Assembly: GCA_963678705.1 (NCBI GenBank)
Contig: OY783215.1
Location: 16,535,740 to 16,599,739 of the forward strand
Origin: Panorpa germanica
Lineage: Eukaryota; Arthropoda; Insecta; Mecoptera; Panorpidae
Length of the DNA stretch: 64,000 nt
Reading direction: 5' to 3'
Part shown: positions 20,317 through 57,175 of the stretch, piece by piece
Layout: the number at the start of each line of letters is the position of its first letter
Numbering within the stretch: the stretch's first letter is position 1
Notes under the pieces: generated by a model
Seen by the model: only the letters and a program-made list of their open reading frames with translations
Told to the model about the DNA's origin: nothing
The model's database searches: none
Made by a program: the position numbers and the translations under genes

Positions 20317-20516
20317 NNNNNNNNNNNNNNNNNNNNNNNNNNNNNNNNNNNNNNNNNNNNNNNNNNNNNNNNNNNNNNNNNNNNNNNNNNNNNNNNNNNN
20401 NNNNNNNNNNNNNNNNNNNNNNNNNNNNNNNNNNNNNNNNNNNNNNNNNNNNNNNNNNNNNNNNNNNNNNNNNNNNNNNNNNNNNNNNNNNNNNNNNNNN
20501 NNNNNNNNNNNNNNNN
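20317..20516. other. Assembly gap (200 N)
   Basis: A run of exactly 200 N sits between the last satellite monomer, cut at ATCTAT, and unique gene sequence. A round 200 suggests a placeholder of unknown true length, so the satellite may be longer and the adjacency of gene and array is not proven. Confidence 0.99.
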
Positions 20517-21609: not shown

Positions 21610-23260
21610 GTATGGTTTTTATTTGTTAGTTTACCGTAAGAGCTGGAACACACTACGATTTTTAATCGTCCGTTTATATGCAACTCAGTTTATATGCAGT
21701 ACTATATCTATATCTATACTGTTGTATTTCGATATCTGTTGTATTATAACGATACAAATAATACCTATTCAAAGAAATGCACCGTCAAAACATAATATCA
21801 ACAATACTGTGTTCTTGCGGCACAAAGAGATGTGCCGCAAGAAATCTGTAGCTGCGACAAAAGTCGCTCAGATTTACGCTATTAATTATAACACGATAAC
21901 GCGAAGGAAAATAACAATGTAGTAGAAATGGTGGCCTGCTTCATATTTTGTGATTACGTTTACATAGAGGCATATAAATACCTACAGGGTGTCCTATTAG
22001 AAACAACCTTGCAAATTTTCTTCCTGAGATATAAGAATTCAATGCTAATAACTTTAATAATACTTCGATTAATTGACAATGCATATCAATTACAAATTGA
22101 ATTCAACACCATTGAAGCTACACAAACGTCAGTGGCTATATTATTTTGTTTTATTGTTTGAACTAATTTGCTTTGTGTAGTATAATTAAAATAACAATTT
22201 GATGTTTTTCTAATTAATTTAGTCTTTCAATTTAAAACAAAAGTTTTTTGTAAAACATTTATTTAACGTAATTCATTCAATAGAATGTTTTGCTTCTTTT
22301 ATTTTTTTTTTGTGTAATTCGGATTTAACAGTGTTATATCAATAGTTTACCTCTCTCTCACCCCACAGGCGTCCCTCTGTCTCCTACTCACTAACTAACA
22401 CCCCTTCCAATCTAAATACCGTGGACTAGTGCAGCAGGTGTATTATACATACAATAAAATTACTGTAGATTCAAACACAGTAATAATTATTACACAATAT
22501 AATTGAATGATCACAATGAAGAGCGCTGCGATCCGTTGCACAGCTAGGTAGAGAAGAAATTTGACCACTAACTATTAGACATGTTTATTTAAAAAAGTGT
22601 AAAAAAGGTTGTAGTCAGATATCCGAGTCAAACTTTCTTGTAAGTTGAAAACCAGCCTTCGTAATTTTATCATTATCGTAGAAAGATGAGAATACAGTAG
22701 CAGAAGTAAATAATAAGGCCCTTCTTTACATATTGTAATTAAAATTTCAAGTTTTTTCCATCGAAGAACATACAAGACGTCCGACATTAAGAAAAAAACG
22801 GTTTCCTTGCAATATCTTCTTATCATAGGGCCCTATGGTACTCAATTTCCTATAATTTTTGTATATAACATTATTTTATATATCTAATAAATATTAAGCT
22901 GCAGAGCACTTCACTGAAAATTATTAAAAATTCAAAACAACGGATGACAATTTTGCAGGCATTTGTAAAACCTATTATGATATATAAATATCATAATCAT
23001 TTAAAAGGATGATTAACTTTTATTTAAATATTTTACAAATCTTCAAATTTACGTGTAAAAAAAAGCAGAAAATTTCAACCAGTATTTACGTGTCTAACAT
23101 ATATCTAAAGGTCAATTCAACAAGAGTATTTTAAAGAAAATCTGCGCTGCTGGTTTAATAGTCAATAGAAAAGAGTATCCACAGTTCAATACCCACCCAA
23201 CTATGTTATGTATCTCTATCTATCTGTACGAGTACATCCAGTCAGTTTAGCGAACAGAGC
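21610..23260. other. AT-rich intron or intergenic stretch with a hairpin-rich patch
   Basis: After the last recognised exon no convincing exon is seen. 21636-21885 holds several short hairpins: CGATTTTTAATCG, the 13-bp stem at 21812-21843, and GCGACAAAAGTCGC within AAATCTG/CAGATTT arms. This is typical of a decayed MITE. 22351-22400 is C-rich on the plus strand. Open frames of 77-136 codons here show no recognisable motif. Confidence 0.6.
21812..21843. repeat. Perfect 13-bp hairpin
   Basis: TTCTTGCGGCACA, a 6-nt AAGAGA loop, and its exact reverse complement. It is GC-richer than the surroundings and followed 15 bp later by a second hairpin (GCGAC AAAA GTCGC). It probably belongs to a decayed MITE. 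Confidence 0.8.
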
Positions 23261-23332
23261 CAACACCTCCTAAATATACAAAGCCTAACAGCGATTCAGT
23301 CAATGGTATGTGACGTCATCACTTGTAGTCAT
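23261..23332. repeat. Left TIR and sub-terminal inverted repeat, P-like copy 1
   Basis: A 36-bp outer TIR (23261-23296), a 12-bp spacer absent from the other end, and a 24-bp inner block (23309-23332) starting TGTGACGTCATCACTTG. The inner block holds a palindromic TGACGTCA. These are the likely transposase-binding and cleavage sites by analogy with P. Confidence 0.9.
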
Positions 23333-23649
23333 ATGCTGCTGAGTTCTGCTATCGGTATAAGACAGTTTGTTTGAAAATGTTAGTATCATATAGGGTATTG
23401 AACAAAGTTTCTGGTTACAAATTATTAAGGACTATCATTTTTAAATTATTAATTAGTTTGCAATTAATGAATTGTTTGTTTATGAATTGGTTTTTGTAAG
23501 GGTTTTATAATGAGTAATTAAAGAAGTAAAATACATCGAAAATTTAATTTTAAACTAAGTAACATTTCTAAATCGTAACATTTCTACAAAAATTAAAATA
23601 AATAGACTAGTAACACACATATGCAAAAAAGGAAAATGGTATACCTTCC

Positions 23650-23751
<102 letters not shown>

Positions 23752-23864
23752 AAAATAATAATAATAAAAATGTATTATATAAAAATATTAACTTTATTTT
23801 TCATATATTTCTTTTAACAATATACGAGTGTATACAATAACAATACTTATATTTAGAACCATAT

Positions 23865-24191
23865 TTATGTAGTTAGAGTTTGCAATTTTCTTTTCTTATA
23901 CTGTTTATTATGTTGCAAGTCGTCATTTTTACGAGATGATAAATTATTTAACATAATATTAGTTGAAACATGAATTAATAACTTGCATATATAATAGTTG
24001 TTATGACACTCGAGATCAAGAAGGTCTTCTAACAGCATTTCTTTAACTTCTAAAGTTTTGCATGTAACATCTATTATATATTTTCTCTGATTTTGGAGAG
24101 AGAAAAAATCTATATCACGAGACAACTTTTCAACTATTAAATAATTACGTATCATTATAATACTCAATATTATGCAGACGTCCTTTTTCAT
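23865..24191 (-). pseudogene. Detached C-terminal frame of the P-type transposase (copy 1)
   Basis: This 108-codon frame overlaps the end of the main transposase frame by 47 bp in another frame. Its tail (Cys/His-containing, then KNDDLQHNKQYKKRKLQ) resembles the basic C-terminal tail of THAP/P transposases; that is inference. It could be joined by a frameshift near the A5 run in the overlap, or by a very short intron, GTCTGC to TTTAATAG (46 bp). More likely it is what remains after an internal deletion, because the stretch that should hold the last catalytic Glu is absent. Copy 2 has the identical arrangement at 56849-57175. Confidence 0.5.
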
Positions 24192-26029
24192 TCAAACCTT
24201 GAACTACAAATTGGTTGAAAATTTTCAACACTAATTTCACATTTTGGCGCTCAAGATTTGAAGGTGCAATGCTCTTAAATGTTAACCCGTGTGCATAAGA
24301 AATGATTGCAGTATTTTCTATTTCATATAACTTTTTAAGAGCAGAAAATGATGCAGTTCTACAATTATCACCTTTTTCAAAATCTGGAAAAAACATACAC
24401 TGTCCAATATTTTTTTGATTTAACCAGTTATTTCTAATGTTTTTAAGAAGATGAACCGAATCAATTAAATAGAAGAGTGGCCTATTAGCATCCTGGGGAT
24501 GCTGATAAAGAAAAGATGTTTTATTAGGAACAGCGAAACAACTCATAGCTTTTCTATTTATTGCATTGTTATCTGTAACAACACAAATGACTTTGAATCC
24601 CGCCTTTTCTAACCCTAATATAAGCTTTTTTATCAAATTGTATAAAGTTACATAATTTATTGTTTTAATTGGTACAATATGAACAACATCTTTAAATTGT
24701 GATAATAAACTGGAAACCATAAAAACAAAGGCACTTGTAGCCGCAGTATTTGAATCAAACGATGCACCAACAATAGATCCTCCCTTATAGTCAAAAAATG
24801 GTTTAATGTGTATCTCATCAATCATTAGTATAACTGTTTTTTCAAAATCTTGAAGATAGCTTACTCTATTACTAGCGTACATCAAAAAATTTTTATCATT
24901 AGTTTCTAACTGCGGATTTACATGTAAATCATTGCATACTTTCTTCAATGTGTTAGGATGCGGAAATATAAAATATCCACTTTGTCTTAAGAACTTGTAG
25001 GCATGTGGTGAAATTGTATTTAATAAAGAAGCAAATACTAATAACTCAGGGGAATATCTAAAATTATTTGTAGGACATATGCACAATTCTATTTGCCCCC
25101 TTAAGAAATGTAAAATATTTTCATTCTTGTTGGTTACAACGTCCTTTAACAATTCATCGATTAAATGAAATGTAGCACTTCTTTTGCATGTCTTACTGTC
25201 TGCCTTGATTAAAACAATGGTTTCTAAAATATCAGTAATCTCATTGTAGCTAGTTATTTTCTGTGGTAATAATTTTGGGCCTATTTTCTTAATTAATGTA
25301 CTCTTTATAAAGACCGATAATGCCAAATGTTTATCTATTGTAATAGAATATTGAATTAAGGGTTCAGGTTCAACAGTTAAATAAAAAATGCAAATAAGCT
25401 CTTTATCTGGCAAATACTGATGTGACCATCTCTCAGAAACACCGTATTTTCTAATACAATCCAGAAGGTTGTTTATATTATTAATTCTACGATCGGTATT
25501 ATAGGCATTTGCTGAATTTATACTGTTTATGATCGCTGAATTCAATAATCTATTTTCTCTTTCTTCGGCTTTTGAATCGGGAGATACTCTATTTGTTGAA
25601 GGGCCCGGCGAGGTGTTGCTTGAGGAGCAATATGCAACACTTTTGGGGTAATTTGAAAATACAGAAGGAATAGTTCCTTTCTTTAGTCTTTTGACTTTAA
25701 GAGTTGCTGAAACTAGAACACCAGTTTTGTTGTCATACGCTTTCGATTCTGTTTCAATATCGTCACTTTTGAAATGGAGTTCGCAGACCTGTAAATAGTT
25801 TAATATAATAGTCTTGTGATGGTCGGTATGTTTGTCTAATTAATCTTTCACGCATACGTTCTCATTATCTACTTACTTTGGATTTATTCGACGGAACAAA
25901 CGCCTTTCGCTGAATAGCAGAACACCATTTCTTTTTTAAGCATTCGTCTTTAGGGAAGCCAAATACAGATACTTTTGGACCCGTAGGATAGTTGCCCTTA
26001 CAAAGTGGAACGCAGCATCTACTTGGCAT
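24145..26029 (-). CDS. THAP domain / P-element-type transposase, two exons, C-terminally truncated (copy 1)
   Basis: Exon 1 (26029-25877) begins MPSRCCVPLCKGNY, the usual THAP start; an in-frame ATG lies 13 codons upstream, but the Met-Pro start is typical of the fold. A phase-0 intron (donor GTAAGT, acceptor TTTACAG) leads to exon 2 (25788-24145). There the THAP domain finishes with VCELHF and GTIPSVF, completing the C2CH zinc site. The joined protein is 598 aa. The RNase H-like part shows MIDEI (D375), VVTDNNAIN (D457) and IDSVHLLKNIRNNW (D494), the conserved P-family positions. It ends about 100 residues after the last motif. Family members are usually 750-900 aa with a catalytic Glu far downstream (E531 in Drosophila P), so this frame probably cannot cut DNA alone but could still bind the element ends. 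Confidence 0.88.
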
Positions 26030-26463
26030 TTTGTTGTCTAATAATTTACACTTTAAGAAGTCACTCACTCGACAAACTGGTTATTAATTGTGGAATATTA
26101 TAATTAGTTTTATATATTACACAGTTAGCTAAAATTCTACACACGTAATGATCAGTAAAACATTTACAGCACAATTATAGCATACAGTAACAGCATAATT
26201 TTTAGATTAAAACAGTTTAATGTTTAAACCAAATATAAACAAAAAAAAAACACAAACACAGTTACTATAAATACACCCTCTTAAGACTGATTATTTATAT
26301 TTTTAATTAATTATATATTTTATACGATTTTTTTAACCGAAATAACATGGAAGTAAATACAATACGTAATGCACAGAGAGATTCTAAATTGTACTAAATC
26401 AATACCCTTAAAGTACATTTCAAGTATATTTAGGTAGAATTGTGTAAAACATCTGGTGTTCAG

Positions 26464-26524
26464 ATGACTACAAGTGATGACGTCACAAAATCGCAGTTAG
26501 GCCTTGTATATTTAGGAGGTGTTG
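26464..26524. repeat. Right TIR and sub-terminal inverted repeat, P-like copy 1
   Basis: A 24-bp inner block (26464-26487, ending TGACGTCACA), one base, then the 36-bp outer TIR (26489-26524) ending TATATTTAGGAGGTGTTG. The 12-bp difference in spacing from the left end makes the two ends asymmetric. Confidence 0.9.
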
Positions 26525-27358: not shown

Positions 27359-29122
27359 GTTTCAAGGAAGATGCTTCGGGTGATTTGTTGGCTGAAGTTT
27401 TATCCATCACCATATTCATCACCTGGTAAGTGACAAGTTATTTTATTAATTTTATCGTAGATTTTACTCGCCAACATTTATTTCTTTTAAATTGATTTTG
27501 AAGTCTTTTTACGTAAATTAGATGAAACAAGACGAAATGTCATTTTATTTGCGTTATAAAAGTGTGTAAAAGAAAAACGTAGCTAACATAAATTGTTCAG
27601 GCTAGTTGTCATTGTCAAGACACTTTCTTATTCCTGTACAATTGATATGTAGATGCAATAAAAGAAAATCTATCGATGTCAAAAAATGTGAATTTACTGA
27701 CACTGATCTAACGAAGCGATAATTTATATTGAAATACCAGACCGGCAAAACTTGGTCGAGTAAAATCTACTGATGTGGTGGCAGGAAAATGAGGCGCCCC
27801 ATTCTGTCGTCTGTTTGAAGATAAGGTCAGAAGATATCAGTGTTTTGTTTATCTTGTATTTTGATGTTGTTATTCTTTTAATCTTGTAAGTGCTTTAAGG
27901 AACACACGCTGTCAAGTCTGGTTCATTAAATCACTTAGGTTAAGGTTGTGTTTTTCTTTGAACTTCTTAATTGTAAGAATTACAATAAAAAGTTTATATA
28001 GTCAAAGTTACGATAGATCGGCGATGACGTATGGCTAGGGAATTCCTGGACTAAGATTTGAGGAACGTATTATACAGCAAAATATATTTTATAACAGCGT
28101 CATCTATGAGAGCTATTGTGAAATAATTTAAAAAATTGTATGTACGAGTGTCTTTAGATATTATTCCATGTGAATTAACTATTTTTTTTATTAAATTACC
28201 TTATTAAAGATTTAGTTGTCACGCATTTTTTATTCATTAATTAATATTTATACATATTGAAATATTTGTAATGCCTGTTACTTTTGTTAATAACAAATAA
28301 CTGAGTTAAAAGTTAATTCTTTATTCATGTTTTTTTTATATATTTGTTTATAATGTAATATGTACAATTAATAATTGAGTGTGATCAGTTTTTTGTTTAT
28401 CTTGAAAAGTATTACTGCAACAAATAATTTTGTAGATATATATTTATATCAATATATATTATCTATAACTTTAATAATTTCTTTTTGTTTTAACTTTTAT
28501 AATAAGAGATATAAGCAAATATAAATCTTAAATTAAGTGATGTAATTAACAGACTGTACCACTGTAATACACATAAGCATTCATAAACACATTTGAGATT
28601 TATTTTTGCTTGTAACATATTTGTAGTACATAAAAGTTACTACAAAAATGTATTAATAAAAGTTTTAGATAATATTATTGTCTATGTTACTATTACTATA
28701 CCTACTATACGAGTATATAATAGGATAGGGCAGGGCTACTGATTGTGTATTCCTTTATTGTTTTAGGGGCTGGAGTTGTTACAACGAGGTGGAGCTTCAT
28801 AGATGTTTGCTAGATAAAGATTTATGCAGAAAACCTTCCTGATGACAAATCAAATTAAAAGGTAAATTTCTTAAATATGAGTAAAAAGTAATGTTTGCTG
28901 TTTGTGTTTATTAATTTTAGTAAAACATTTAAACGATACATTTCTGTTACTAGTTACTAGTTAGTGCCATATACTCGTAGATGATTTCATATGACTTTTA
29001 TTTTCAGGATCTACTCGTTAGCAGAACAACGTCCGCGTGGAAGTCAAACTCTGAGCAGTAGTAGATGAGAACCTGACTGATTGTGTAAGACAGATATATT
29101 TAGTTATAAAATTTATATTTCG

Positions 29123-29234
29123 TCCGCAAAAGAAATGCCTGTAACAACATAAATAATAATGTTATACAAATGTATATACAGATTTATATATATATACATT
29201 TGTATAACATTATTATTTACAAATGTATATACAG

Positions 29235-29307
<73 letters not shown>

Positions 29308-29465
29308 TTGTATAACATTATTATTTACAAATGTATATACAGATTTATATATATATACATTTGTATAACATTATTATTTACAAATGTATATACAGATTTA
29401 TATATATATATATACATTTGTATAACATTATTATTTATATTGTTACAGGCATTTCTTTTGCGGAC
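29123..29465. repeat. TA-rich inverted repeat duplicating the DNAAF10 exon-1 splice donor
   Basis: The plus-strand text from about 29123, GTCCGCAAAAGAAATGCCTG and onward through TAACA, is the reverse complement of 29465-29430 with few differences. That arm spans the end and 5' splice site of the minus-strand DNAAF10 exon. Between the arms lie three copies of an ACAAATGTATATACAGATT / ATACATTTGTATAACATTA unit in head-to-head pairs and a ~70-bp TA run (29236-29305). The whole can fold into a long hairpin. Confidence 0.85.
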
Positions 29466-29685
29466 TTGAAGCACCGAAAGTAGCACACTTGAACGCTTTT
29501 TTTCTCTCAAATTGTTTTAAACATTGTAAATTTCCTCCATTCAGTTCATAAATTTGACAGATACCAGTACCTTTAGGTAGGTTACCCAGTACAACAAATC
29601 TTGCTGAACAAGGTATCCATTTAGTTTCAAATATCGTATAAGGCAAAGATTTTTCTATGTGACCAATTACTTGTGGTTTATCCAT
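29447..29685 (-). CDS. DNAAF10: DNAAF10 (WDR92) dynein axonemal assembly factor, first coding exon
   Basis: The exon starts with ATG at 29685 ([19 protein letters not shown]). It continues with [20 protein letters not shown], an IYELNGG segment and [14 protein letters not shown], matching the N-terminus of WDR92/Monad as I know it: KPQ.I.HI, the KW.PCSA.FV..GN stretch and the CGTFGA stretch. An in-frame ATG 31 codons upstream would add a hydrophobic leader the family lacks, so the inner start is chosen. The donor is GTAACA after TGC CT, where the family continues into the first WD40 blades. WDR92 is a cytoplasmic WD40 protein that works with R2TP/prefoldin-like chaperones in preassembly of ciliary dynein arms. 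Later exons were not found before 26.5 kb, so this is either an exon before a large intron or a stranded fragment. The inverted repeat at the donor is odd. Confidence 0.8.
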
Positions 29686-30590
29686 ATCTTTTATTATATA
29701 AGAAATAAAATCGCAAATAATTCTAAACAATAAACATACAAAAATCGACGCAGTGTTTTGTTCACTCCGTTTGATCAATAAATTTATACTTAGGTGTTAA
29801 GGTTAGTATTCATAATAAACAAGATACAAAAACATAACATGACAAACATAACTTGTTTATAATAATTATGAGTTATATAAATAAATATTTCAATTGAAGT
29901 TGTTATGGAGCTGTCATTCAGATATAACCTTAAAAATTTTAAATGATGTGCAATGAAGTATTTATTTAACAAAACTTATTTGAAGGTTCTTGATATTATA
30001 ATCCAGGTCTAGATATATATCCTAGAGATACCTACATTATTACGGAGGTAAGGAAGCTGTAATAAACTGAAGCTAGAGATATTTAAAAGATACAATTTGC
30101 TTTCATTTTGTATAGGTATTTTAAAACTACTGGATAGAATCATACAGCTGGAGAAGTTGGACATAAAAAGTGGATAACATGTCACAGGTGTTATCTCACA
30201 GGATGATAGAGGATAACAAATTGACCATGATGGCGAGATGTCTGATTACGTAAATATGATTTCCAAGTACGGGCTTCATAAGGTCTAATAATAATAACAG
30301 GTATATTGACAGTATAAATTAATCATTTCTAATGTACTCTTGACGGATAGGTTGAGATAGATCTTAGAAACTAAAGCATTTAGAGATAGGTTATGTTATG
30401 TGTAAAATAGTGCGTGGTAAACCAAGATTTAATTAAAAACATGAGTTCTCTTAACAGTTCATGTTGATTTAATAACATCTATAGTTTTAAGTTAACTAAA
30501 AGATTTTCTTGTTGTATATTTAATACTGCACAGACTATAACCAAATCTCTTAATCTTATGTTCTCATTTTGTTTTATTTTATATTTTCAG
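29686..30590. other. Upstream flank of DNAAF10 exon; no further gene recognised
   Basis: This presumably holds the 5' UTR and promoter of the minus-strand gene, in AT-rich sequence with no motif I can assign. It also lies in the largest intron of the putative plus-strand transcript. A 60-codon minus frame (29790-29972) shows no family features. Confidence 0.5.
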
Positions 30591-30925
30591 AAATGGCAGA
30601 AATGACAATGGGGAATTATTATAGGAGACTTATAGATCGGAAGCTATTTGATAATCGACAGAACGAGGGGGATCTCCAAGAGCAGAATAAAATTACGAAC
30701 TTAGATGAACACCATCAACAGAAGGACTTCTAACGGTGTATCAACATATTTGAGGAAAGCTCAAAGGTAAATACAAAAAATTATATTAATATTTGGTCCT
30801 TGTTACATTGTTAAATATGGGGTGCTCCGTATATGATCAGTCTTATTTATAGTTTTCATTGTTACAGACATTTCTTTTGGGGGCGAAAGGTGATTATGCG
30901 ACATCGTTTGGTTCTTTAAAATGAA

Positions 30926-31300
30926 GATAATATTGTAATTTAATAATAATTTATTGTAATATATAACATAAATATAATATTTAGATTGTAATTATATGTA
31001 AATATATTTATTAAAGGCTTATATCCTATAATTTTTTTTTAATTTAGTAATAGTATATAGTAATAGAATATTTAAAATTATTTGTGTAAAAATAAAACAG
31101 TTCTAGAGTTTACTTTTATTCATCATAGATGGCAGTATAAATTTTTGTTAAAACTCGAAGTCGTTGTATGTCTCGCACTTGATAAACCAAAGTATAGGAG
31201 TAAGGGCGTGGACGAGCAGACGTGGGTGGGGCCACACACAACGTGCTTAAAAAACGTGCTTCTTAAATTTAACAAGCTTGGATACTTTGTATTAGAGATT
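30926..31300. other. AT-rich flank leading to the hairpin array
   Basis: 30926-31085 is strongly AT-rich. 31241-31292 carries a segment (ACGTGCTTCTTAAATTTAAC and onward) that recurs diverged at 31948-32000, on the other side of the hairpin array. Confidence 0.6.
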
Positions 31301-32000
31301 GCATTGGCACCCTGTGGGTGCTCGCCTATGGCGACTATGTAGGATGCCTCTGGCATCCTATAGGTGGCCGCGAAGCGGCCACTATAAACGTTTATGCAAT
31401 CGCAAAGCGATTGCAATGGCACCCTGCGGGTGCCATAGTCGCCTTTGGCGACTATGTAGGATGCCTCTGGCATCCTATAGGTGGCCGCTTAGCGGCCACT
31501 AAAACGTTTATGCAATCGCGAAGCGATTGCATTGGCACCCTACGGGTGCCATAGTCGCCTTCGGCGACTATGTAGGATGCCTCCGGCATCCTATAGGTGG
31601 CCGCGTAGCGGCCACTAAAACGTTTATGCAATCGCAAAGCGATTGCATTGGCACCCTACGGGTGCCATAGTCGCCTTCGGCGACTATATTTAAATTTACG
31701 TTTTTATTTAATCTAAAACGCAAGAAAAACGTGACGCCTACCCCTGCCTTCACTCGAGTAGCTCTAACGCTACACTGAGGATATATTTGTTTTGCAAGGT
31801 ATTATATACTTCAAAATTGTTAAATTTAAAATGATCTTTCTAAACTTGTGGCGCCATCTATTTATTGAAACCTAAACTAAAAGATCTCCATCTATATATT
31901 GGTAACAGTACTAAATTTATCCATCTATATAAGTTGTATACGAAAAAACGAACGTTTAAAAAACGAACTTCTTACATTTAACAAGCTGGATATCTTGTAT
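31241..32000. repeat. Diverged direct repeats flanking the hairpin array
   Basis: 31241-31292 and 31948-32000 share the plan ACGTGCTT/ACGAACTT, CTTAAATTTAACAAGCTTGG / CTTACATTTAACAAGCTGG, then ATACTTTGTAT / ATATCTTGTAT. The array begins eight bases after the first copy. They could be remnants of a duplicated host segment or of element ends. Confidence 0.7.
31301..31687. repeat. Tandem array of 17 GC-rich perfect hairpins, 116-bp unit
   Basis: Five hairpins follow one another with 3-nt loops: TGGCACCC/GGGTGCCA, CATAGTCGCC/GGCGACTATG, TAGGATGCC/GGCATCCTA, GTGGCCGC/GCGGCCAC and TGCAATCGC/GCGATTGCA. The set repeats every 116 bp (the fifth hairpin starts at 31396, 31512 and 31628), giving one partial unit, two full units and a final partial unit. 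Between units the loops differ (TGT/TGC/TAC; TAT/TTT/TTC; TCT/TCC; GAA/TTA/GTA; AAA/GAA). The stems are unchanged except in the degenerate first two hairpins. GC content is far above the surroundings. 116 is not a multiple of 3 and the open frames on both strands are by-products, so a repeated protein is unlikely. Function unknown. Confidence 0.95.
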
Positions 32001-40255: not shown

Positions 40256-40998
40256 TAGACCAGGGTAGAAGCCGTCAAAAATAATTAAAAACATAAAAAA
40301 ATTAAAGTAGAATGAAACCTATTGGAAATGCAAGGGAATACTACTAAAATGAAAGGAAAAATAAATTACGGGCGATCTGAGGTTGGGAAGGGGTAGGGGG
40401 TGAGGTTTTAAGGGTAAAAATCGGTAAATCTCGATTTCCGGCAAAACTACAAGTCCTATCGAAAAAAGTTAAATCGCAAAGTTGTAGATAATAAAAAGAT
40501 CTACAACTTTTGTATCTACACTTTTTCTCCATAACCTCAAAATTCATGTAAAAAATCCAAAAAACCACATTTTTGATTTTTTATTTTTATCTTTTACAAA
40601 AAAATTTTTTTTTTCATGATATTTTGTGAAAACTTACCTCTTTATGTCCCAAACACACTGGAATTTTGAAGATTTAAAATATTAATTTTTTCACCCTATT
40701 TTGACTCGATATCGAAAAAATAACCCTAATTTTCAATCGAAAATTCTCACGTCAAAATATCTGATTTTTCAAAAAAGTCGGTGATCTTTTTGTTCGTTGA
40801 AATCTCTATTTTCTGATGGTGTAAAAAAAAATATACATTACTATGGAAAATTTTTTCAGAAAATGCAACAAAACGAAAAATACTAAAATTCTAAATTTTT
40901 TTTTTAATCTTTATGTACAATTTTGAGGTATTCATTAAAATTTTTACTTTAATTACTCGAAAAACGTTAGGTTCCATGTTAGATTAATAAACAAAAAA
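40256..40998. repeat. Left long terminal inverted repeat, copy 1
   Basis: It matches the reverse complement of 46890-47623 with small indels in the outermost 40 bp and in T-runs. It contains a 12-bp stem hairpin at 40478-40510 (AAAGTTGTAGAT / ATCTACAACTTT). The corresponding place in the right TIR is where copy 1 is broken. Confidence 0.88.
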
Positions 40999-41303
40999 AT
41001 TACAAACCAATTAAACATAAATATCGCAAAAAACATAGTTGTTGTAAATATTAAAAATACGATTTAAAGGGGATTTTATTAAAAAAATGTGACTACTGCT
41101 ATTTTTTTCAGTAATAAAAGTTGATTTATTAAATTTTCATTACATTTATGTATTAGAAAATCTCATTAGATAGAAATATACACGTAAATCGTACTATTGA
41201 GTAGAGATTTTTTTTAATGATTACACTATACATTATATTATTTCTAAAAGCATTAATCTTTGTATTTATCAAAACATAGTATTCAATTCGAATCACTTAT
41301 TCA

Positions 41304-41891
41304 TCAGTTTCTGTCTTTTTGATGGTATTTCTTGATCGTTAGATTCGACAGCCTTTCTGATTCTAGTAGATCTTCGACATCTTCAAGACCATCACCGTCT
41401 TCGTCTCTAACATTATTTTCGGTCTGCATTGGTTCTTCATCCGCAATTTCATCTGAATCATTAACTTCCTCGTAGATTTTTTTCTCCACATTGGCGCATT
41501 GTTCAGAACCATCACAATTTGAGCATAAATTTGTGCATTTTAAACCATGTTTTCGGCCGCCACATTTTAATCTATTACATCCAGTTTCACAGCTGCAGCA
41601 AATAGTTTTCAGCAATTTTTCCGGAATTAATTCCATTTCTGTAAATTTGGGCATAATTCCATGTTGATGTTGCTTACAGCCCCAATCTGTTGCTGTCAAT
41701 TCATTACCCAGCCACGTTTGAAGCTGATAATATGCCCTGTAACAATGTTGTTCTGCTGCACCTTCTGTGGGTGGGAGATTTGCCAATATGAAAGATGATT
41801 TAATTTTTGCCAATTGATATTTTTGAAATCTTAATTGATTCAGTGATATATTATCCTTTTTACATTTATAAATAGATTTAATTAATTTCAA
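41304..41891 (-). CDS. CXC (tesmin/TSO1-like) domain protein, downstream part of a frame-broken fusion, copy 1
   Basis: The 195-codon frame lacks an ATG at its 5' end (first codon TTG at 41891). It continues the nuclease frame after a -1 step at the A8 run, so it is best read as the C-terminal half of one protein. It carries LANLPPTEGAAEQHCYRAYY and the WLGNELTATDWGC stretch, then CCSCETGCNRLKC, GLKCTNLCSNCDG: a CXC-type array of eight or more cysteines expected to bind zinc and DNA. An acidic tail follows (DSDEIADEEP, EDGDGLEDVEDLLE). In widespread arthropod and cnidarian homologues, as I recall them, the LPPT..A..QH..R.YY stretch directly follows the nuclease domain in one chain. Copy 2 is identical in this frame. 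Confidence 0.8.
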   Translation of the reverse strand: MKLIKSIYKCKKDNISLNQLRFQKYQLAKIKSSFILANLPPTEGAAEQHCYRAYYQLQTWLGNELTATDWGCKQHQHGIMPKFTEMELIPEKLLKTICCSCETGCNRLKCGGRKHGLKCTNLCSNCDGSEQCANVEKKIYEEVNDSDEIADEEPMQTENNVRDEDGDGLEDVEDLLESERLSNLTIKKYHQKDRN

Positions 41892-42961
41892 TCCATTTTT
41901 TTTATATCTTCTTTGTTTACTTCTTTTTTAAAAAAAATATTAGCTAAATTTGACAAATTTTGATTGTCTAATAATGAATTTACGATAGTTTTCTTTCCTT
42001 TTCCGGTAAATCCAGATGTTGTGTCGCAACCAGAAAAACAATGCAGAAATGCAACGATGTTTATGACGGATTCACACTTGAAACTATTAGACGTGAAAAA
42101 AAGATCTTTTATATTTCCAGAACTGGGCTTGAGAAAATAAATTTTATGATTATTAGAATTTAATTGATTCAAAAGGACCAAAAGATCAATATCTTGTCCT
42201 ACAACAATGACAGTTTTATTAGTATCTTTGGCAATTTCTATCGAGGTCTTAATAATGTCAGCATCAGCATCTTCTTTAGCTTGTTTACAGGAAAATCCTT
42301 TTGACTGTAATACTTGCATTAACGATTTTATTATTTTGTCTTTGTTTTTCTCATTAGATAAAAATTTTTCTTGCAAAAATGATATTTTTGTATGGTTTTG
42401 ATAATTCAACTCTGGAATATTGCCTGACGTCTTTCTACGACTACGTTCTCCTTTTATAGTTGAATGAACTGCTGGTACTGTTGACACAGTAATTGATTTT
42501 TCAATTTCAGGGTACCCATCAAAAACTATACAGCTGTCTGCTGCGTAATGTTTTTCTACATAGCGTAAATATATATTCATGATCTCTTCCAACGTTTCAT
42601 TTTTCTGCCAAATTACTTTGTGTAGTAAAAATCCACCGTCGACGACATGCACAATGCCGTCAAAATGCGTTGGTCTATTCGTACTCACAAATAATTCGTA
42701 GAGCTGAGATTTAACGTTTTTTCTGAAGCCATTTTCGGTAAAAAGAGATAATGGAAAAGGTGCAAGCTCGTATTGTAAATAAGTTTCCATATCTTTTTTA
42801 CTGTCGATCGTTAGAGATATTCTTTGAAATATCAATAACGGATCAATTGCTATAATATCTCCGTTTACTTTAACAGAAGATTGGACCGTTTTTAGAGACA
42901 AGACTTCACTCAGGTCACTCAGGTATATAGGTATAATTTTAAAATAGCAATAAATAGGCAT
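41888..42961 (-). CDS. XPG/FEN1-like structure-specific nuclease domain protein, copy 1
   Basis: The 357-aa frame starts at ATG 42961, preceded by an in-frame TAG. It shows the XPG/FEN1 acidic centres in order: VVDGGFLLHK (D108), IVFDGYPEIEK with GERSRRK (D148), AKEDADADII (E230-D235), VVGQDIDLLV (D257, D259), and FLHCFSGCDTTSGFTGKGKK (D313) matching the helix-two-turn-helix glycine-rich part. Enzymes of this fold cut flap or bubble DNA with two metal ions; all key acids are present, so activity is possible. Family homologues usually carry several hundred more residues N-terminal to the IDPLLIFQR segment, which are missing here. The frame stops (ATG GAT TGA) just after a slippery A AAA AAA. 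Copy 2 differs by one residue (I169K). Confidence 0.85.
   Translation of the reverse strand: MPIYCYFKIIPIYLSDLSEVLSLKTVQSSVKVNGDIIAIDPLLIFQRISLTIDSKKDMETYLQYELAPFPLSLFTENGFRKNVKSQLYELFVSTNRPTHFDGIVHVVDGGFLLHKVIWQKNETLEEIMNIYLRYVEKHYAADSCIVFDGYPEIEKSITVSTVPAVHSTIKGERSRRKTSGNIPELNYQNHTKISFLQEKFLSNEKNKDKIIKSLMQVLQSKGFSCKQAKEDADADIIKTSIEIAKDTNKTVIVVGQDIDLLVLLNQLNSNNHKIYFLKPSSGNIKDLFFTSNSFKCESVINIVAFLHCFSGCDTTSGFTGKGKKTIVNSLLDNQNLSNLANIFFKKEVNKEDIKKMD
41896..41903 (-). promoter_or_regulatory. A8 run: possible -1 frameshift site between nuclease and CXC frames, copy 1
   Basis: On the minus strand the nuclease frame reads ATA AAA AAA ATG GAT TGA. The heptamer A AAA AAA is in the register used by -1 programmed frameshifting. 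A one-base slip gives AAT GGA TTG AAA and enters the CXC frame exactly. A fixed indel mutation in a homopolymer would look the same. I saw no clear downstream stem-loop. Confidence 0.4.
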
Positions 42962-43578
42962 CTACGCATATAATTTAAAGAAAATTCGACAATTTTCTCA
43001 AAATTTTGTAGATGTCATATTAAATATTAACTTTATTAACTTATTTAGTTGTTAATTATAGTAGTACATTTCGACTTGCAATTTTTTGTTTATTAATCTA
43101 ACATGCTCCCTAACGTTTTTCGAGTAATTAAAGTAAAAATTTTGATGAATACCTCAAAATTGTACATAAAGATTAAACAAAAAAATTTCGAATTTTAGTA
43201 TTTTTCGTTTTCTTGCATTTTCTGAAATTTTTTTCCATAGTAATGTATATTTTTTTTTACACCATCAGAAAATAGAGATTTCAACGAACAGAAAGCCCAC
43301 CGACTTTTTTGAAAAATCAGATATTTTGACGTGAGAATTTTCGATTGAAAATTAGAGTTATTTTTTCGATATCGAGTCAAAATAGGGTGAAAAAATTAAT
43401 ATTTTAAATCTTCAAAATTCCAGTGTGTTTGGGACATAAAGAGGTAAGTTTTCACCAAATATCATGAAAAAAAAAATTTTTTTGTAAAAGATAAAAATAA
43501 AAAATCAAAAATGTGGTTTATTGGATTTTTTACATGAATTTTGAGGTTATGGAGAAAAAGTGTAGATACAAACGTTGT

Positions 43579-44077
43579 GGGGTGGTCTAAAAGGGTAGAT
43601 TTATAAATGGAATGAGTTGGAAACCGGAGTATTACTACAGTGTTACGTAAATACATTTCAAATGGTAGGGAAAAGGCGAGAGGTGAAGGGAGGGCAGTGA
43701 AATTCCAGTTTACAGTGTGGATCCAATCATTCTGCCTGCCGGTAATGTAAAACCCGTAATAATAAAATTTAGAGGTTGACAATTTGTGAATTTCTTTATA
43801 AAGAATTCGTGAAACAGATTGTTACAAAATAATTTGCTGTTTTAAATTTTTACTGAAATATCTGCAATATTTGTAAACATGATACATTCATTAAATATCG
43901 GCAATCGCTTGTTTCTCGGTTTAGAAGAATGTAGCAGCAATATATATATATTACACACACCTACACAAGGTCATTCAATGTCGCTTCATAAAGGAAAGGT
44001 ATAAATAATTTGAATTCCAAATAAGTTTTCATTACTCCAAGAAAGTTTTGAATAGTTCCTAACAAGATATAGGTAGA
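43579..44077. repeat. 499-bp segment between the two nuclease elements, duplicated at 49433-49931
   Basis: It starts GGGGTGGTCTAAAAGGGTAG and ends AAGATATAGGTAGA; every landmark recurs 5854 bp downstream with no length change. The junctions carry short overlaps: GG at the left, and GGTAGA at the right, where the next element copy begins GGTAGAAGCC. It has no terminal inverted repeats, so it is not an obvious transposon. Confidence 0.9.
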
Positions 44078-45111
44078 AGCCGTCAAAAATAATTAAAAAC
44101 ATAAAAAAATTAAAGTAGAATGAAACCTATTGGAAATGCAAGGGAATACTACTAAAATGAAAGGAAAAATAAATTACGGGCGATCTGAGGTTGGGAAGGG
44201 GTAGGGGGTGAGGTTTTAAGGGTAAAAATCGGTAAATCTCGATTTCCGGCAAAACTACAAGTCCTATCGAAAAAAGTTAAATCGCAAAGTTGTAGATAAT
44301 AAAAAGATCTACAACTTTTGTATCTACACTTTTTCTCCATAACCTCAAAATTCATGTAAAAAATCCAAAAAACCACATTTTTGATTTTTTATTTTTATCT
44401 TTTACAAAAAAATTTTTTTTTTCATGATATTTTGTGAAAACTTACCTCTTTATGTCCCAAACACACTGGAATTTTGAAGATTTAAAATATTAATTTTTTC
44501 ACCCTATTTTGACTCGATATCGAAAAAATAACTCTAATTTTCAATCGAAAATTCTCACGTCAAAATATCTGATTTTTCAAAAAAGTCGGTGATCTTTTTG
44601 TTCGTTGAAATCTCTATTTTCTGATGGTGTAAAAAAAAATATACATTACTATGGAAAATTTTTTCAGAAAATGCAACAAAACGAAAAATACTAAAATTCT
44701 AAATTTTTTTTTTAATCTTTATGTACAATTTTGAGGTATTCATTAAAATTTTTACTTTAATTACTCGAAAAACGTTAGGTTCCATGTTAGATTAATAAAC
44801 AAAAAAATTACAAACCAATTAAACATAAATATCGCAAAAAACATAGTTGTTGTAAATATTAAAAATACGATTTAAAGGGGATTTTATTAAAAAAATGTGA
44901 CTACTGCTATTTTTTTCAGTAATAAAAGTTGATTTATTAAATTTTCATTACATTTATGTATTAGAAAATCTCATTAGATAGAAATATACACGTAAATCGT
45001 ACTATTGAGTAGAGATTTTTTTTAATGATTACACTATACATTATATTATTTCTAAAAGCATTAATCTTTGTATTTATCAAAACATAGTATTCAATTCGAA
45101 TCACTTATTCA

Positions 45112-45699
45112 TCAGTTTCTGTCTTTTTGATGGTATTTCTTGATCGTTAGATTCGACAGCCTTTCTGATTCTAGTAGATCTTCGACATCTTCAAGACCAT
45201 CACCGTCTTCGTCTCTAACATTATTTTCGGTCTGCATTGGTTCTTCATCCGCAATTTCATCTGAATCATTAACTTCCTCGTAGATTTTTTTCTCCACATT
45301 GGCGCATTGTTCAGAACCATCACAATTTGAGCATAAATTTGTGCATTTTAAACCATGTTTTCGGCCGCCACATTTTAATCTATTACATCCAGTTTCACAG
45401 CTGCAGCAAATAGTTTTCAGCAATTTTTCCGGAATTAATTCCATTTCTGTAAATTTGGGCATAATTCCATGTTGATGTTGCTTACAGCCCCAATCTGTTG
45501 CTGTCAATTCATTACCCAGCCACGTTTGAAGCTGATAATATGCCCTGTAACAATGTTGTTCTGCTGCACCTTCTGTGGGTGGGAGATTTGCCAATATGAA
45601 AGATGATTTAATTTTTGCCAATTGATATTTTTGAAATCTTAATTGATTCAGTGATATATTATCCTTTTTACATTTATAAATAGATTTAATTAATTTCAA
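45112..45699 (-). CDS. CXC domain protein, downstream half of frame-broken fusion, copy 2
   Basis: Identical in sequence to the copy 1 frame (LPPT..A..QHC..YY segment, eight-plus Cys CXC array, acidic tail). It is entered from the nuclease frame by the same -1 step at the T-run 45704-45711. Identity of both frames including the break shows that the break predates the duplication. Confidence 0.8.
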   Translation of the reverse strand: MKLIKSIYKCKKDNISLNQLRFQKYQLAKIKSSFILANLPPTEGAAEQHCYRAYYQLQTWLGNELTATDWGCKQHQHGIMPKFTEMELIPEKLLKTICCSCETGCNRLKCGGRKHGLKCTNLCSNCDGSEQCANVEKKIYEEVNDSDEIADEEPMQTENNVRDEDGDGLEDVEDLLESERLSNLTIKKYHQKDRN

Positions 45700-46769
45700 T
45701 CCATTTTTTTTATATCTTCTTTGTTTACTTCTTTTTTAAAAAAAATATTAGCTAAATTTGACAAATTTTGATTGTCTAATAATGAATTTACGATAGTTTT
45801 CTTTCCTTTTCCGGTAAATCCAGATGTTGTGTCGCAACCAGAAAAACAATGCAGAAATGCAACGATGTTTATGACGGATTCACACTTGAAACTATTAGAC
45901 GTGAAAAAAAGATCTTTTATATTTCCAGAACTGGGCTTGAGAAAATAAATTTTATGATTATTAGAATTTAATTGATTCAAAAGGACCAAAAGATCAATAT
46001 CTTGCCCTACAACAATGACAGTTTTATTAGTATCTTTGGCAATTTCTATCGAGGTCTTAATAATGTCAGCATCAGCATCTTCTTTAGCTTGTTTACAGGA
46101 AAATCCTTTTGACTGTAATACTTGCATTAACGATTTTATTATTTTGTCTTTGTTTTTCTCATTAGATAAAAATTTTTCTTGCAAAAATGATATTTTTGTA
46201 TGGTTTTGATAATTCAACTCTGGAATATTGCCTGACGTCTTTCTACGACTACGTTCTCCTTTTTTAGTTGAATGAACTGCTGGTACTGTTGACACAGTAA
46301 TTGATTTTTCAATTTCAGGGTACCCATCAAAAACTATACAGCTGTCTGCTGCGTAATGTTTTTCTACATAGCGTAAATATATATTCATGATCTCTTCCAA
46401 CGTTTCATTTTTCTGCCAAATTACTTTGTGTAGTAAAAATCCACCGTCGACGACATGCACAATGCCGTCAAAATGCGTTGGTCTATTCGTACTCACAAAT
46501 AATTCGTAGAGCTGAGATTTAACGTTTTTTCTGAAGCCATTTTCGGTAAAAAGAGATAATGGAAAAGGTGCAAGCTCGTATTGTAAATAAGTTTCCATAT
46601 CTTTTTTACTGTCGATCGTTAGAGATATTCTTTGAAATATCAATAACGGATCAATTGCTATAATATCTCCGTTTACTTTAACAGAAGATTGGACCGTTTT
46701 TAGAGACAAGACTTCACTCAGGTCACTCAGGTATATAGGTATAATTTTAAAATAGCAATAAATAGGCAT
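45696..46769 (-). CDS. XPG/FEN1-like nuclease domain protein, copy 2
   Basis: 357 aa, with all the acidic motifs of copy 1 retained (D108, D148, E230-D235, D257/D259, D313). The single difference is Lys for Ile at residue 169, beside the basic GERSRRK patch, which fits the usual basic character there better. The N-terminal extension expected for the family is missing in this copy too. Confidence 0.85.
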   Translation of the reverse strand: MPIYCYFKIIPIYLSDLSEVLSLKTVQSSVKVNGDIIAIDPLLIFQRISLTIDSKKDMETYLQYELAPFPLSLFTENGFRKNVKSQLYELFVSTNRPTHFDGIVHVVDGGFLLHKVIWQKNETLEEIMNIYLRYVEKHYAADSCIVFDGYPEIEKSITVSTVPAVHSTKKGERSRRKTSGNIPELNYQNHTKISFLQEKFLSNEKNKDKIIKSLMQVLQSKGFSCKQAKEDADADIIKTSIEIAKDTNKTVIVVGQDIDLLVLLNQLNSNNHKIYFLKPSSGNIKDLFFTSNSFKCESVINIVAFLHCFSGCDTTSGFTGKGKKTIVNSLLDNQNLSNLANIFFKKEVNKEDIKKMD

Positions 46770-46889
46770 CTACGCATATAATTTAAAGAAAATTCGACAA
46801 TTTTCTCAAAATTTTGTAGATGTCATATTAAATATTAACTTTATTAACTTATTTAGTTGTTAATTATAGTAGTACATTTCGACTTGCAA

Positions 46890-47623
46890 TTTTTTGTTTA
46901 TTAATCTAACATGCTCCCTAACGTTTTTCGAGTAATTAAAGTAAAAATTTTGATGAATACCTCAAAATTGTACATAAAGATTAAACAAAAAAATTTCGAA
47001 TTTTAGTATTTTTCGTTTTCTTGCATTTTCTGAAATTTTTTTCCATAGTAATGTATATTTTTTTTTACACCATCAGAAAATAGAGATTTCAACGAACAGA
47101 AAGCCCACCGACTTTTTTGAAAAATCAGATATTTTGACGTGAGAATTTTCGATTGAAAATTAGAGTTATTTTTTCGATATCGAGTCAAAATAGGGTGAAA
47201 AAATTAATATTTTAAATCTTCAAAATTCCAGTGTGTTTGGGACATAAAGAGGTAAGTTTTCACCAAATATCATGAAAAAAAAAATTTTTTTGTAAAAGAT
47301 AAAAATAAAAAATCAAAAATGTGGTTTATTGGATTTTTTACATGAATTTTGAGGTTATGGAGAAAAAGTGTAGATACAAACGTTGTAGATCTTTTTATTA
47401 TCTACAACTTTGCGATTTAACTTTTTTCGATAGGACTTGTAGTTTTGCCGGAAATCGAGATTTACCGATTTTTACCCTTAAAACCTCACCCCCTACCCCT
47501 TCCCAACCTCAGATCGCCCGTAATTTATTTTTCCTTTCATTTTAGTAGTATTCCCTTTCATTTCAAATAGGTTTCATTCTACTTTAATTTTTTTATGTTT
47601 CTAAAATTATCTACCCTGGTCTA
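46890..47623. repeat. Right long terminal inverted repeat, copy 2 (complete)
   Basis: The reverse complement of the left TIR from AAACAAAAAA inward to TAGACCAGGG at the tip. The outermost ~25 bp differ from the left end by a short deletion (the left has GAAGCCGTCAAAAATAATTA where the right has a shorter TAATTTT). It includes the AAAGTTGTAGAT-type hairpin in complete form. Confidence 0.88.
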
Positions 47624-53582: not shown

Positions 53583-56252
53583 TATGTATTCGCGTTATGT
53601 GCGTGAAGAAGAGGAGCTAGCTGGTAGCGATCCAAGTGGTATATTCATGAACTTTCTGTACGGAACTAAACATTGACATTGAATCACCGTTTATCACTGT
53701 AATATCTGATTCAATACCAAGACAACTTGTAAATATAACTTCCACAATATGAAACAGTCCAGTGGAGTTTTCCCAACAGCGAAAACTATTTCCTCAGTGT
53801 GTACCAGGTCGACTATACTCGTAGTCACATGTTCTATTCACAACGTGGTACAATAGCAGTAAATTGTAAATTCAAAATCCGGGGCGACATTTCATCAATG
53901 GACAGTGGAAGGGGAGGGAGTGTAGGGTAGGAGATGTCGGTGTGGTGGCGTCCAGGTCTATTTCCGGAGTTGACTAATGTCGAGAAGGATAATATAACGA
54001 GAGTCAACAACAACAGGAGCGATTGTGAAATAAAAAAATATATTTAATCAACTGCTAGTATTGAAATATAGTAAACACAATTACTTTAATGGGTATCATA
54101 ACAAAATGAGGACAAGATTACATCATAATCGGTGATTAGTCCAACTGTTGGATAACTAGAAGACATAAGAGGACTGCAGTGACAAGCAATAGGCATTTGT
54201 TCATAAAATACTGTACAATAACTATTACATCATAAACAAGTGCATATATTTTTTAATATAATTTTAATCTTGGTGAAAATATTGCATGTTCACTGCATAT
54301 TGAATATGAAACATGAAATTATGTTTTTTTTTCTAAAATTAAAAACAGGGACAAACAGAATTGTTTGCTGAGAAGGGGTAAGAGGAGTGTGATAGAGGAC
54401 TTTTGAGTTTCAAGAGAGAAATAATGAACCAGCCTTATATACAGACGCTGGATTATAGTATACCCTTATTGCAACAGGATGATTCGAAAGATTTATCCAA
54501 ACATATGGGGTTAATATATACAGGATATTTATATATAGCAACCGCAAAATAAAACATGGACATTACTTTTAAATACACGTAACATTTTACTTAAACGAAA
54601 TATAGTAATAATAAATCTAAAGGTCTGAATTGGACTTACGTCGGAACATTTCTAACGATAATGCTTTTATAATTAAATAAGTACAATAATAGTAATGTTG
54701 GTAATAAGTTCAAGGTACTCATCGCACAGACAAGGGTTGTAATATGCCTGAGGAATATAGGCAGATATTTGAAAGGAAGGAAAGTCTGGAAAACCTTATT
54801 GACTTTATTAACAAAACTAATTAAGCTCTTTATTTTGAGGACCCATACTCGTATCAATAAGTTGTAAATGTTTATAAAAGTTTGTCAGAATAGTTGTGGC
54901 TGAGATAAAGTGGGTCTCTTTTAAAGCACCCTGTACTACAAGAAGGGTTGCTATAAGTGAGGATATAAATTTAGAACATCATATAATGATACTTAGTCAT
55001 GTTCCTCCTTGCCTAGAGATAGAATATCACGGCTTTATTATACGTGAGAAGAGGACGGACACAAATTTGCATATTTTTTACTAGAGAAAGCATTTTTTGA
55101 AAAATTGTACGATGTACTATGAATGGGTATTAAAAAAAAAGAACTTTATCTTATTTAAATATTATAAATAACTAGCTGTAACTAATTATCAGAGACTGAT
55201 TGATCAGTGTGTTAGAATTGATCATTTTATTTTTCAGTAGTCAATCTTCAGTCATAATTGAAGTTTATAACCTAAATAATGAGTTTTCAAATTTAGTTTT
55301 CTTAAAGATCAACCCAAAATGTAACTGAGGTATCTTGCTTGATTAAGCTACAGTTATAGTCAACTTGAAAAAAAATAAGAGCTAAGATATACGAGAACTG
55401 GTTATTGAAAAATCGATCAAAACAGAGAAAAAAATTAATTAGCAATAATTATCTTAGTTTATCCCATAAATGTTATTAACTATATTATACATGTGTACAA
55501 CGCTTATCAGCAGAACGTTGTAATCAAGATGAACCAGCGACGGCAAACTCGACTGCTTTGATGTTGATAAAATAGGTCACACAAATTAGAAACCCCCAAG
55601 AGCGGGCAATTCATAATGTGAAGTGGGGATTCCAGATTTTAATTTGAAGGCACTTTATTTCAATCATGCTAATAAGCACTAGAGTTCTTTTTTGCACTAC
55701 ACATGCTTTTCAAATTATTACCTGCTGTTTTTCAGAAATACTTGTTTTATATAATTAAGTTATATTCACAAATATATAATTAATTTGAATGGAATAATGG
55801 GTTATGAAATGAAGACGTTATTACTACAAAGAAAATTATTAAAGTTTATCATTATCGAGAGAGAACTAATTGCTGCAATCATTTTAACCGGCGAATATTT
55901 TCTGAACTACTGTCATATGGTATTCAACTCTTATGACGACTATAAAGCGGGTTGCACGGTATAAAACACCGTGTGGTAGTGGCAATGGCATCGCCCTCTG
56001 GGTCTACTTTACGTGGTGAATCAATAACCCTCTGGACCGAATAAGCGGACGAGGTTCACGGCGTGCAGGTAAACTGCAGGTAGAGGCACAGATATGTGGG
56101 GTCGCACATCTACCCCTTGTGTGCGTGGGGCTAGAGATACTATACGTACGTATAAGCACATATAATATTGACACACTTAACTTCGATTACAATTGCCAGA
56201 ATTTATCAAACCATCAGATCAAATGGAATGACACGTCAGAAGTGGGATCAGC
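53583..56252. other. No gene recognised
   Basis: A purine-rich patch at 53905-53960 and otherwise AT-rich sequence. Frames of 62-73 codons show no motifs. Ends directly at the second P-like element with GGATCAGC. Confidence 0.5.
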
Positions 56253-56641
56253 CAACACCTCCTAAATATACAAAGCCTAACAGCGATTCAGTCAATGGTA
56301 TGTGACGTCATCACTTGTAGTCATATGCTGCTGAGTTCTGCTATCGGTATAAGACAGTTTGTTTGAAAATGTTAGTATCATATAGGGTATTGAACAAAGT
56401 TTCTGGTTACAAATTATTAAGGACTATCATTTTTAAATTATTAATTAGTTTGCAATTAATGAATTGTTTGTTTATGAATTGGTTTTTGTAAGGGTTTTAT
56501 AATGAGTAATTAAAGAAGTAAAATACATCGAAAATTTAATTTTAAACTAAGTAACATTTCTAAATCGTAACATTTCTACAAAAATTAAAATAAATAGACT
56601 AGTAACACACATATGCAAAAAAGGAAAATGGTATACCTTCC

Positions 56642-56643
<2 letters not shown>

Positions 56644-56730
<87 letters not shown>
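56644..56730. repeat. TA microsatellite inside P-like copy 2
   Basis: About 87 bp of TA, 8 bp shorter than in copy 1. Confidence 0.95.
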
Positions 56731-56735
<5 letters not shown>

Positions 56736-56848
56736 AAAATAATAATAATAAAAATGTATTATATAAAAATATTAACTTTATTTTTCATATATTTCTTTTA
56801 ACAATATACGAGTGTATACAATAACAATACTTATATTTAGAACCATAT

Positions 56849-57175
56849 TTATGTAGTTAGAGTTTGCAATTTTCTTTTCTTATACTGTTTATTATGTTGC
56901 AAGTCGTCATTTTTACGAGATGATAAATTATTTAACATAATATTAGTTGAAACATGAATTAATAACTTGCATATATAATAGTTGTTATGACACTCGAGAT
57001 CAAGAAGGTCTTCTAACAGCATTTCTTTAACTTCTAAAGTTTTGCATGTAACATCTATTATATATTTTCTCTGATTTTGGAGAGAGAAAAAATCTATATC
57101 ACGAGACAACTTTTCAACTATTAAATAATTACGTATCATTATAATACTCAATATTATGCAGACGTCCTTTTTCAT
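56849..57175 (-). pseudogene. Detached C-terminal frame of the P-type transposase (copy 2)
   Basis: Identical to the frame at 23865-24191: a 108-codon tail overlapping the end of the main frame by 47 bp. The break between the two frames is the same in both copies, so it was already present in the source element. Confidence 0.5.

Follow-up and report, generated by a model that had tools for sequence, protein, structure and literature searches.

The window analysed here, a stretch of 64,000 nucleotides of the Panorpa germanica contig OY783215.1, carries at 31297..31687 a short tandem array with a period of 116 bp, 3.4 copies and 93% matches, as determined by Tandem Repeats Finder; neither the array nor any of its parts is assigned to a strand. 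The 116-bp unit is made of five abutting hairpins in the order A-B-C-D-E, each consisting of an arm, a 3-nt loop and the reverse complement of the arm. A self-complementarity scan returned 15 hairpins when a stem of at least 7 bp and a 3-nt loop were required, and 17 when the stem was allowed to be as short as 5 bp. Both methods bear out the first-pass annotation, which had described hairpins following one another in a 116-bp unit, with loops of 3 nt. Its count of 17 hairpins also stands, with one correction: full stems of 8–10 bp are found in 15 of the 17, and the two leftmost are shortened to 6 and 5 bp.

Specifically, the array opens with the shortened A (31307..31321, 6 bp, loop TGT) and the shortened B (31322..31334, 5 bp, loop TAT, partly a direct reading of the sequence), followed by hairpin C at 31340..31360 (stem TAGGATGCC, loop TCT), D at 31364..31382 (stem GTGGCCGC, loop GAA), E at 31395..31415 (stem TGCAATCGC, loop AAA), A at 31416..31436 (stem TGGCACCC, loop TGC) and B at 31434..31456 (stem ATAGTCGCC, loop TTT). 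Further copies of C map to 31457–31477 and 31573–31593, of D to 31481–31499 and 31597–31615, of E to 31510–31532 and 31626–31648, of A to 31533–31551 and 31649–31667, and one more B to 31550–31572. The last hairpin, at 31667..31687, is a B with the loop TTC. The array alignments confirmed that the differences between units are confined to the loops, as had been noticed at first sight.

Five hairpins per unit are beyond chance, the mean in 2000 dinucleotide shuffles being 0.009 and the maximum 1. The folding z-score of the array is -19.1 against 100 shuffles. Its GC content of 55.5%, compared with 30.1% in the remaining window right of the N gap, makes it GC-rich, but not “very AT-poor” as initially stated. 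The head-to-tail tandem unit is a feature of classical satellites; the present arrays stay short, with about five units at most.

The surrounding DNA is rich in other repeats. A 295-bp satellite (68.7 copies) occupies positions 1–20316, up to a 200-N run (20317–20516). On the minus strand, an open frame of 564 aa (24145–25839) has domains like those of P-element transposases (PF21787, PF12017); it lies within a 3.3-kb stretch (23258–26524) which is duplicated at 56250–59508 with 99.8% identity. A direct 3.3-kb duplication, 99.9% identical, is formed by 40264–43578 and 44072–47386. A further minus-strand frame, at 29443–29796, falls inside the segment common to the array copies and has no Pfam match; we take it to resemble the start of a WDR92-like gene.

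Copies of the array in the assembly

The search of the unit across the 464-Mb assembly, proposed in the first-pass annotation, was carried out with the array as query (40 of 45 candidates scored), and showed that copies exist beyond the window: array-like matches in the assembly comprise at least 55 stretches at no fewer than 40 places. The 40 places retrieved for comparison (L009–L048) lie on contigs of 10–48 Mb; the nearest contig end is no more than 1 Mb away in 24 of them and no more than 150 kb away in 12, a nearness which suggests a subtelomeric placement. The assembly contains 74 instances of the perfect C hairpin and none of the reversed control pattern.

The flanks that other copies have in common with the window copy are long, reaching up to 28377..31932, as would be expected of duplicated segments. 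This interval was regarded as a transposon at a first look only; because at either end the window copy ceases to follow the others, its borders mark the limits of sharing and not proven element ends. Fifteen places on 9 contigs, one of them in the window, carry the 181-bp right flank (31690..31870 in the window) with 100% identity (40 of 46 candidates scored), and its core is kept in diverged copies. An inverted twin (L010) lies about 35 kb away, right of the window (OY783215.1:16602342-16602732, minus strand), and differs from the window copy by one mismatch in 4389 aligned bases, at a loop base. Between copies with near-identical flanks, the number of units ranges from less than one to about five.

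The diverged copies L036, L037, L044–L046 and L048 have different stems and a shared right box; to the left they carry a large palindrome of at least 14 bp with the loop GAA, and to the right a palindrome with the loop GTCA or GTTA. In further diverged copies listed in the assembly the flanks match too. The main copies have long flanks in common and the diverged copies both flanks, and no clean empty site was found among the copies compared.

Several other identities were considered and set aside. Open frames across the array are translated palindromes and were not accepted as genes. With Rfam 15 no match reached the gathering score in the window, and in eight loci the sole match above gathering was a U2 fragment outside the array; weak matches to miRNAs and to a Brucella sRNA in the loci lay on the palindromes, below gathering scores, and were not taken as a structured RNA family. 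The U2 snRNA match (L048:2516-2589, 56.8 bits, gathering score 46) includes a readable 5' fragment of about 38 nt with ACTATACAATT on both sides, and resembles a truncated retro-inserted U2 copy. UUCG RNA tetraloops were set aside on theoretical grounds, as loops of 4 nt would throw the stem out of register. A tRNA-like stretch left of the diverged arrays L036, L044, L046 and L048, with A- and B-box-like motifs by eye, was discarded when ARAGORN returned no tRNA in 12 loci, and a LINE promoter was rejected, the endonuclease frame of L043 having no match in 49 other sequences searched. Neither was a viral or bacterial origin retained: IMG/VR patterns, GTDB contigs, phages and plasmids, sets with few or no animal genomes and possibly lacking near records, gave no match.

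Divergence of loops, stems and flanks

Divergence was compared in five disjoint pairs of near-identical copies, picked for flank differences of no more than about 0.4% (L009/L010, L012/L013, L016/L017, L038/L039 and L019/L020). Differing sites amounted to 13/249 in the loops, 2/1109 in the stems and 24/14,807 in the flanks, that is, a 32-fold excess of loops over flanks (p = 1.3e-14) and no difference between stems and flanks (Fisher p = 0.70). Taken singly, four of the five pairs are significant (p of 0.013 or less) and L012/L013 is not (0.087); for L038/L039, the loops count as 4/33, or as 2/36 under stricter annotation. Twelve of the 13 loop changes are transitions, compared with 9 of the 19 flank changes printed (24 in total), a comparison of small numbers; transversions are common in older comparisons. 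Two more pairs, omitted from the five on account of shared loci, gave 16/49 in loops, 0/195 in stems and 3/3022 in flanks (L009/L018), and 8/36 in loops and 3/3008 in flanks (L009/L027).

Over 57 pairs from two groups, which are not independent, the counts were 549/2076 for loops, 196/1947 for spacers, 71/11,721 for stems and 632/69,514 for flanks. The ten pairs of L009, L018, L027, L032 and L035, again not independent, sum by hand to 0/1815 in stems versus 50/12,350 in flanks. In an alignment of 18 loci, the variable columns were 24/33 in loops, 17/32 in spacers, 22/188 in stems and 39/240 in flanks, the last value being too high because of L030 and L033, which have unrelated right ends.

Pairs from older subfamilies were also scored. 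Loops, stems and flanks differ at 5/21, 1/193 and 18/385 sites in L046/L048, at 12/63, 5/428 and 12/774 in L021/L024, at 3/36, 0/249 and 17/1067 in L036/L040, and at 3/38, 7/261 and 27/1037 in L040/L042. The loop excess is only 2- to 3-fold in L044/L045 (8/27, 15/203 and 26/224) and L036/L048 (5/20, 29/211 and 30/253), and no excess over the flank is seen in L037/L045 (2/33, 3/196 and 27/228).

In conclusion, the loop excess is strong in recent copies and fading or absent in old ones, as saturation or a changed process would give. Because the stems vary about like the flanks or somewhat less, the excess of loop change is the striking fact: loops are unusually fast, more than stems are unusually slow. 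The comparison of stem and loop rates over the copies sustains one part of the initial reasoning: self-complementary stems with changing loops are indeed found, and the result named as refuting it, stem mutations as frequent as loop mutations in other genomic copies, was not obtained. The statement that loop-only variation implies that stems are kept is not supported in that form, the stems evolving at the flank rate or somewhat below it.

Loop types, loop inversion and paired stem changes

Loop types were counted in perfect hairpins with a stem of at least 7 bp from 39 loci (n = 535), which are related by descent, so that the counts are not independent. A C-G pair closes the loop in 527 of them, and all 15 GC-bearing inner stems are likewise C-G closed, the remaining three inner stems being AT-rich. 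By loop, the 535 hairpins divide into 377 GNA/TNC, 113 ANA/TNT and 45 others. At the central position, read on the GNA strand, A is found in 203, T in 73, G in 59 and C in 44. Pooled control hairpins were C-closed in 5/120 and of the GNA/TNC type in 8/120. Those from elsewhere in the window (n = 43) contributed 4 and 2, and those from nine 10-kb loci (n = 77) 1 and 6, the latter set excluding array-like stems by a filter that also lowers C-closed counts.

The very stable C-G-closed d(GNA) triloop of DNA was reportedly first described by Yoshizawa and others in 1997. Since the DNA parameters of ViennaRNA treat all 64 loops alike and show no loop preference, the argument from GNA stability rests on the literature, in which d(GNA) triloops with a C-G closing pair are very stable, d(GCA) melting at 68.9 °C with C-G versus 48.9 °C with G-C closing (PMC5815330).

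The loops of C, D and E were found both as a motif and as its reverse complement (GAA/TTC), with few intermediates. By hand tally, loops of type RNA, of type YNY and others number 67, 31 and 6 in E (n = 104), 77, 19 and 9 in D (n = 105), and 8, 83 and 6 in C (n = 97). B loops keep a single orientation in 119/121, and no inversion was seen in the A or B hairpins of the copies compared. L021, L024, L038–L040 and L042 contain two adjacent D hairpins, the loops of which in several copies are GCA and TGC, mutual reverse complements.

As far as stem changes are concerned, paired cells prevail over broken ones in D (20 versus 11) and E (22 versus 16, with 2 wobble), a result with which a second count, using either arm as probe, agrees. 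Unpaired changes equal or outnumber paired ones in B (9 paired, 13 broken, 6 wobble), C (13, 21 and 4) and A (16, 95 and 36); of the rows counted for A, at least 31 are chimeric. The GAA/TTC inversions in C, D and E fit the idea, put forward in the first-pass annotation, that a copying process templates one arm from the other.

Origin of the loop excess and comparison with known systems

The explanation that we favour, with a little less than even confidence, is that the array is a passenger cassette whose hairpins fold on single-stranded DNA, with templating between the arms and exposed, mutable loops. The cassette would reside within subtelomere-like duplicated DNA and in older dispersed copies. 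Hairpins would form on single-stranded DNA during replication, resection or break-induced copying, and the position near contig ends may provide such DNA through the last of these. In the folded state one arm would template the other, keeping the two complementary, and template switching would sometimes invert the loop; the three loop bases, exposed and without a template, would gather changes some 30-fold faster than the surrounding DNA, and unequal exchange would add or remove units and reshuffle the loop variants. Because template switching equalises arms and inverts spacers, it could account for both the intact stems and the two loop orientations. At short inverted repeats in yeast, it equalises the arms and inverts spacers of 2–5 bp, including gaa/ttc (PMC8604942), and the present arrays show corresponding traces, namely both loop orientations in C, D and E and paired changes in D and E. 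In human tumours, spacers are the most mutable part of short inverted repeats, by about 1.35-fold (PMC5737083). The preponderance of transitions in the loops would fit deamination of exposed bases.

Exchange between arrays is a serious rival to this folding and templating, if a rather unlikely one as the whole explanation. It assumes ordinary loop mutation in old arrays whose units are traded through unequal exchange and gene conversion, with constrained stems and with flanks recently copied or homogenised. The range in unit number beside near-identical flanks is in its favour, and so are the unpaired spacers within the array, which at 196/1947 in the 57 pairs also exceed the flanks, as array turnover would give. 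In addition, the last B loop, which is tied to the flank, is TTC in 28/29 copies versus 29/61 at the other B positions (p = 1.7e-6) with the same stem, an invariance not expected from loop exposure alone. Flanks have diverged to a similar degree in L009/L018 and L016/L017 but loops very differently (16/49 versus 4/66), and the L009/L018 difference is block-like, which suggests block exchange in some arrays. On the other hand, spacers among L009, L018, L027, L032 and L035 differ at 9/272 sites versus 91/319 for the loops (hand sums), so that the array, taken as a whole, is not old; right-anchored alignments of equal-length copies reveal single loop-base changes on an otherwise identical unit, and the closest pairs, L009/L010 and L012/L013, each differ by a single loop base and have no stem differences. 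Exchange and a DNA-level process may act together.

Selection on structure, with stems serving a folded product (an element RNA or a protein-bound hairpin array) and loops left free, appears improbable: free loops should equal the flank rate, not surpass it 30-fold, and the stems are not clearly slower than the flanks. Some paired stem changes, the conserved right-flank box and the 14-bp end hairpins whose GAA loops persist in diverged copies agree with such selection, but the GTCA/GTTA loops of the right end hairpin fit the DNA pattern GNNA rather than the RNA pattern GNRA, and the window holds no Rfam family at gathering score. We consider it more improbable still that the hairpins are subterminal palindromes of part of a rolling-circle, Helentron/HINE-like element. 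Members of that group typically contain palindromes and tandem repeats (PMC4067079), and the hairpin stability rules point to single-stranded DNA; nevertheless, ends, TT insertion sites and Rep/helicase were not found at the array loci studied, the 14 proteins scanned with Pfam include no Rep or helicase, and published members, in the excerpts consulted, carry one or two palindromes and not arrays. That the loop differences are an artefact of sequencing, assembly or consensus is very unlikely, given a last loop constant in 28/29 copies, loop classes that track subfamilies and 12/13 transitions among recent loop changes, even in a repeat-rich region with near-identical duplicates and a 200-N gap 11 kb away.

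The folding of short palindromes into hairpins or cruciforms in animal cells in vivo, and its mutational effect, are hard to measure. Here, 535 perfect hairpins at 39 loci stand beside a flank identical at 15 places, which allows the rates of stems, loops, spacers and flanks to be set against one another in a single molecule. It is possible, though doubtful, that the arrays act as a natural record of hairpin extrusion in germline DNA, combining in vivo folding, loops that mutate tens of times faster than neighbouring DNA, mutually rewritten arms and loops at the d(C-GNA-G) optimum; in that case, the sequence itself would tell when and where a chromosome end turns single-stranded. If the germline rate of loop mutation is indeed about 30-fold higher, the arrays would be a ready reporter; if exchange explains the loop excess, they would sensitively mark recombination that takes place between the ends of chromosomes.

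No report of such an array in nuclear insect DNA was found in the open-licence PMC literature, and by that measure a nuclear, ordered five-hairpin tandem array at contig ends, with loops faster than the adjacent DNA, is apparently new. The known systems discussed here are compared on the basis of excerpts of the cited papers. Helentron/HINE/DINE-1 elements are likewise insect repeats with palindromes and tandem repeats, but are characterised by subterminal inverted repeats, TT insertion and few palindromes (PMC4067079). The palindromic repeats of Volvox share short palindromes with loops of 3–5 nt that multiply in non-coding DNA, nuclear copies included, but have constant loops (TAAA/TTTA) and decayed nuclear stems (PMC2670323), whereas in the present arrays loops vary and most stems are intact. 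Yeast template switching, alike in arm equalisation and spacer inversion, concerns single genic sites, and the excerpts describe neither an array nor an elevated frequency of single-base changes in the loop (PMC8604942). The mutable spacers of human tumours are somatic, and their average of about 1.35-fold contrasts with about 32-fold here (PMC5737083).

The closest known kinds, on the same basis, are the mitochondrial GC-rich hairpin elements of sponges and yeasts, with conserved stems and variable loops. In common with them, the present arrays are multi-copy GC-rich hairpins in AT-rich DNA (55.5% versus 30.1% GC, at least 55 stretches), with conserved stems and substitutions mainly in the loops, L037/L045 being the exception; instead of an organelle location, they sit on contigs of 10–48 Mb. 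In the yeast GC clusters (GC42), changes are more numerous in loops than in stems, and loop diversity exceeds the synonymous rate of most genes; nonallelic recombination is the explanation put forward there (PMC4478555). GC42 is a dispersed, mobile mitochondrial unit of 42 nt, and not a series of abutting hairpins with loops of 3 nt (PMC4478555). The repetitive hairpin-forming elements of sponge mitochondria are GC-rich too, also occur as tandem double or triple hairpins, and have conserved stems, with substitutions only in the loops in some species and complementary stem substitutions between types (PMC2800124). They are mitochondrial and scattered, and the excerpts do not set their loop rate against flanks (PMC2800124), whereas the present array is an ordered five-hairpin tandem unit on nuclear contigs, near contig ends.
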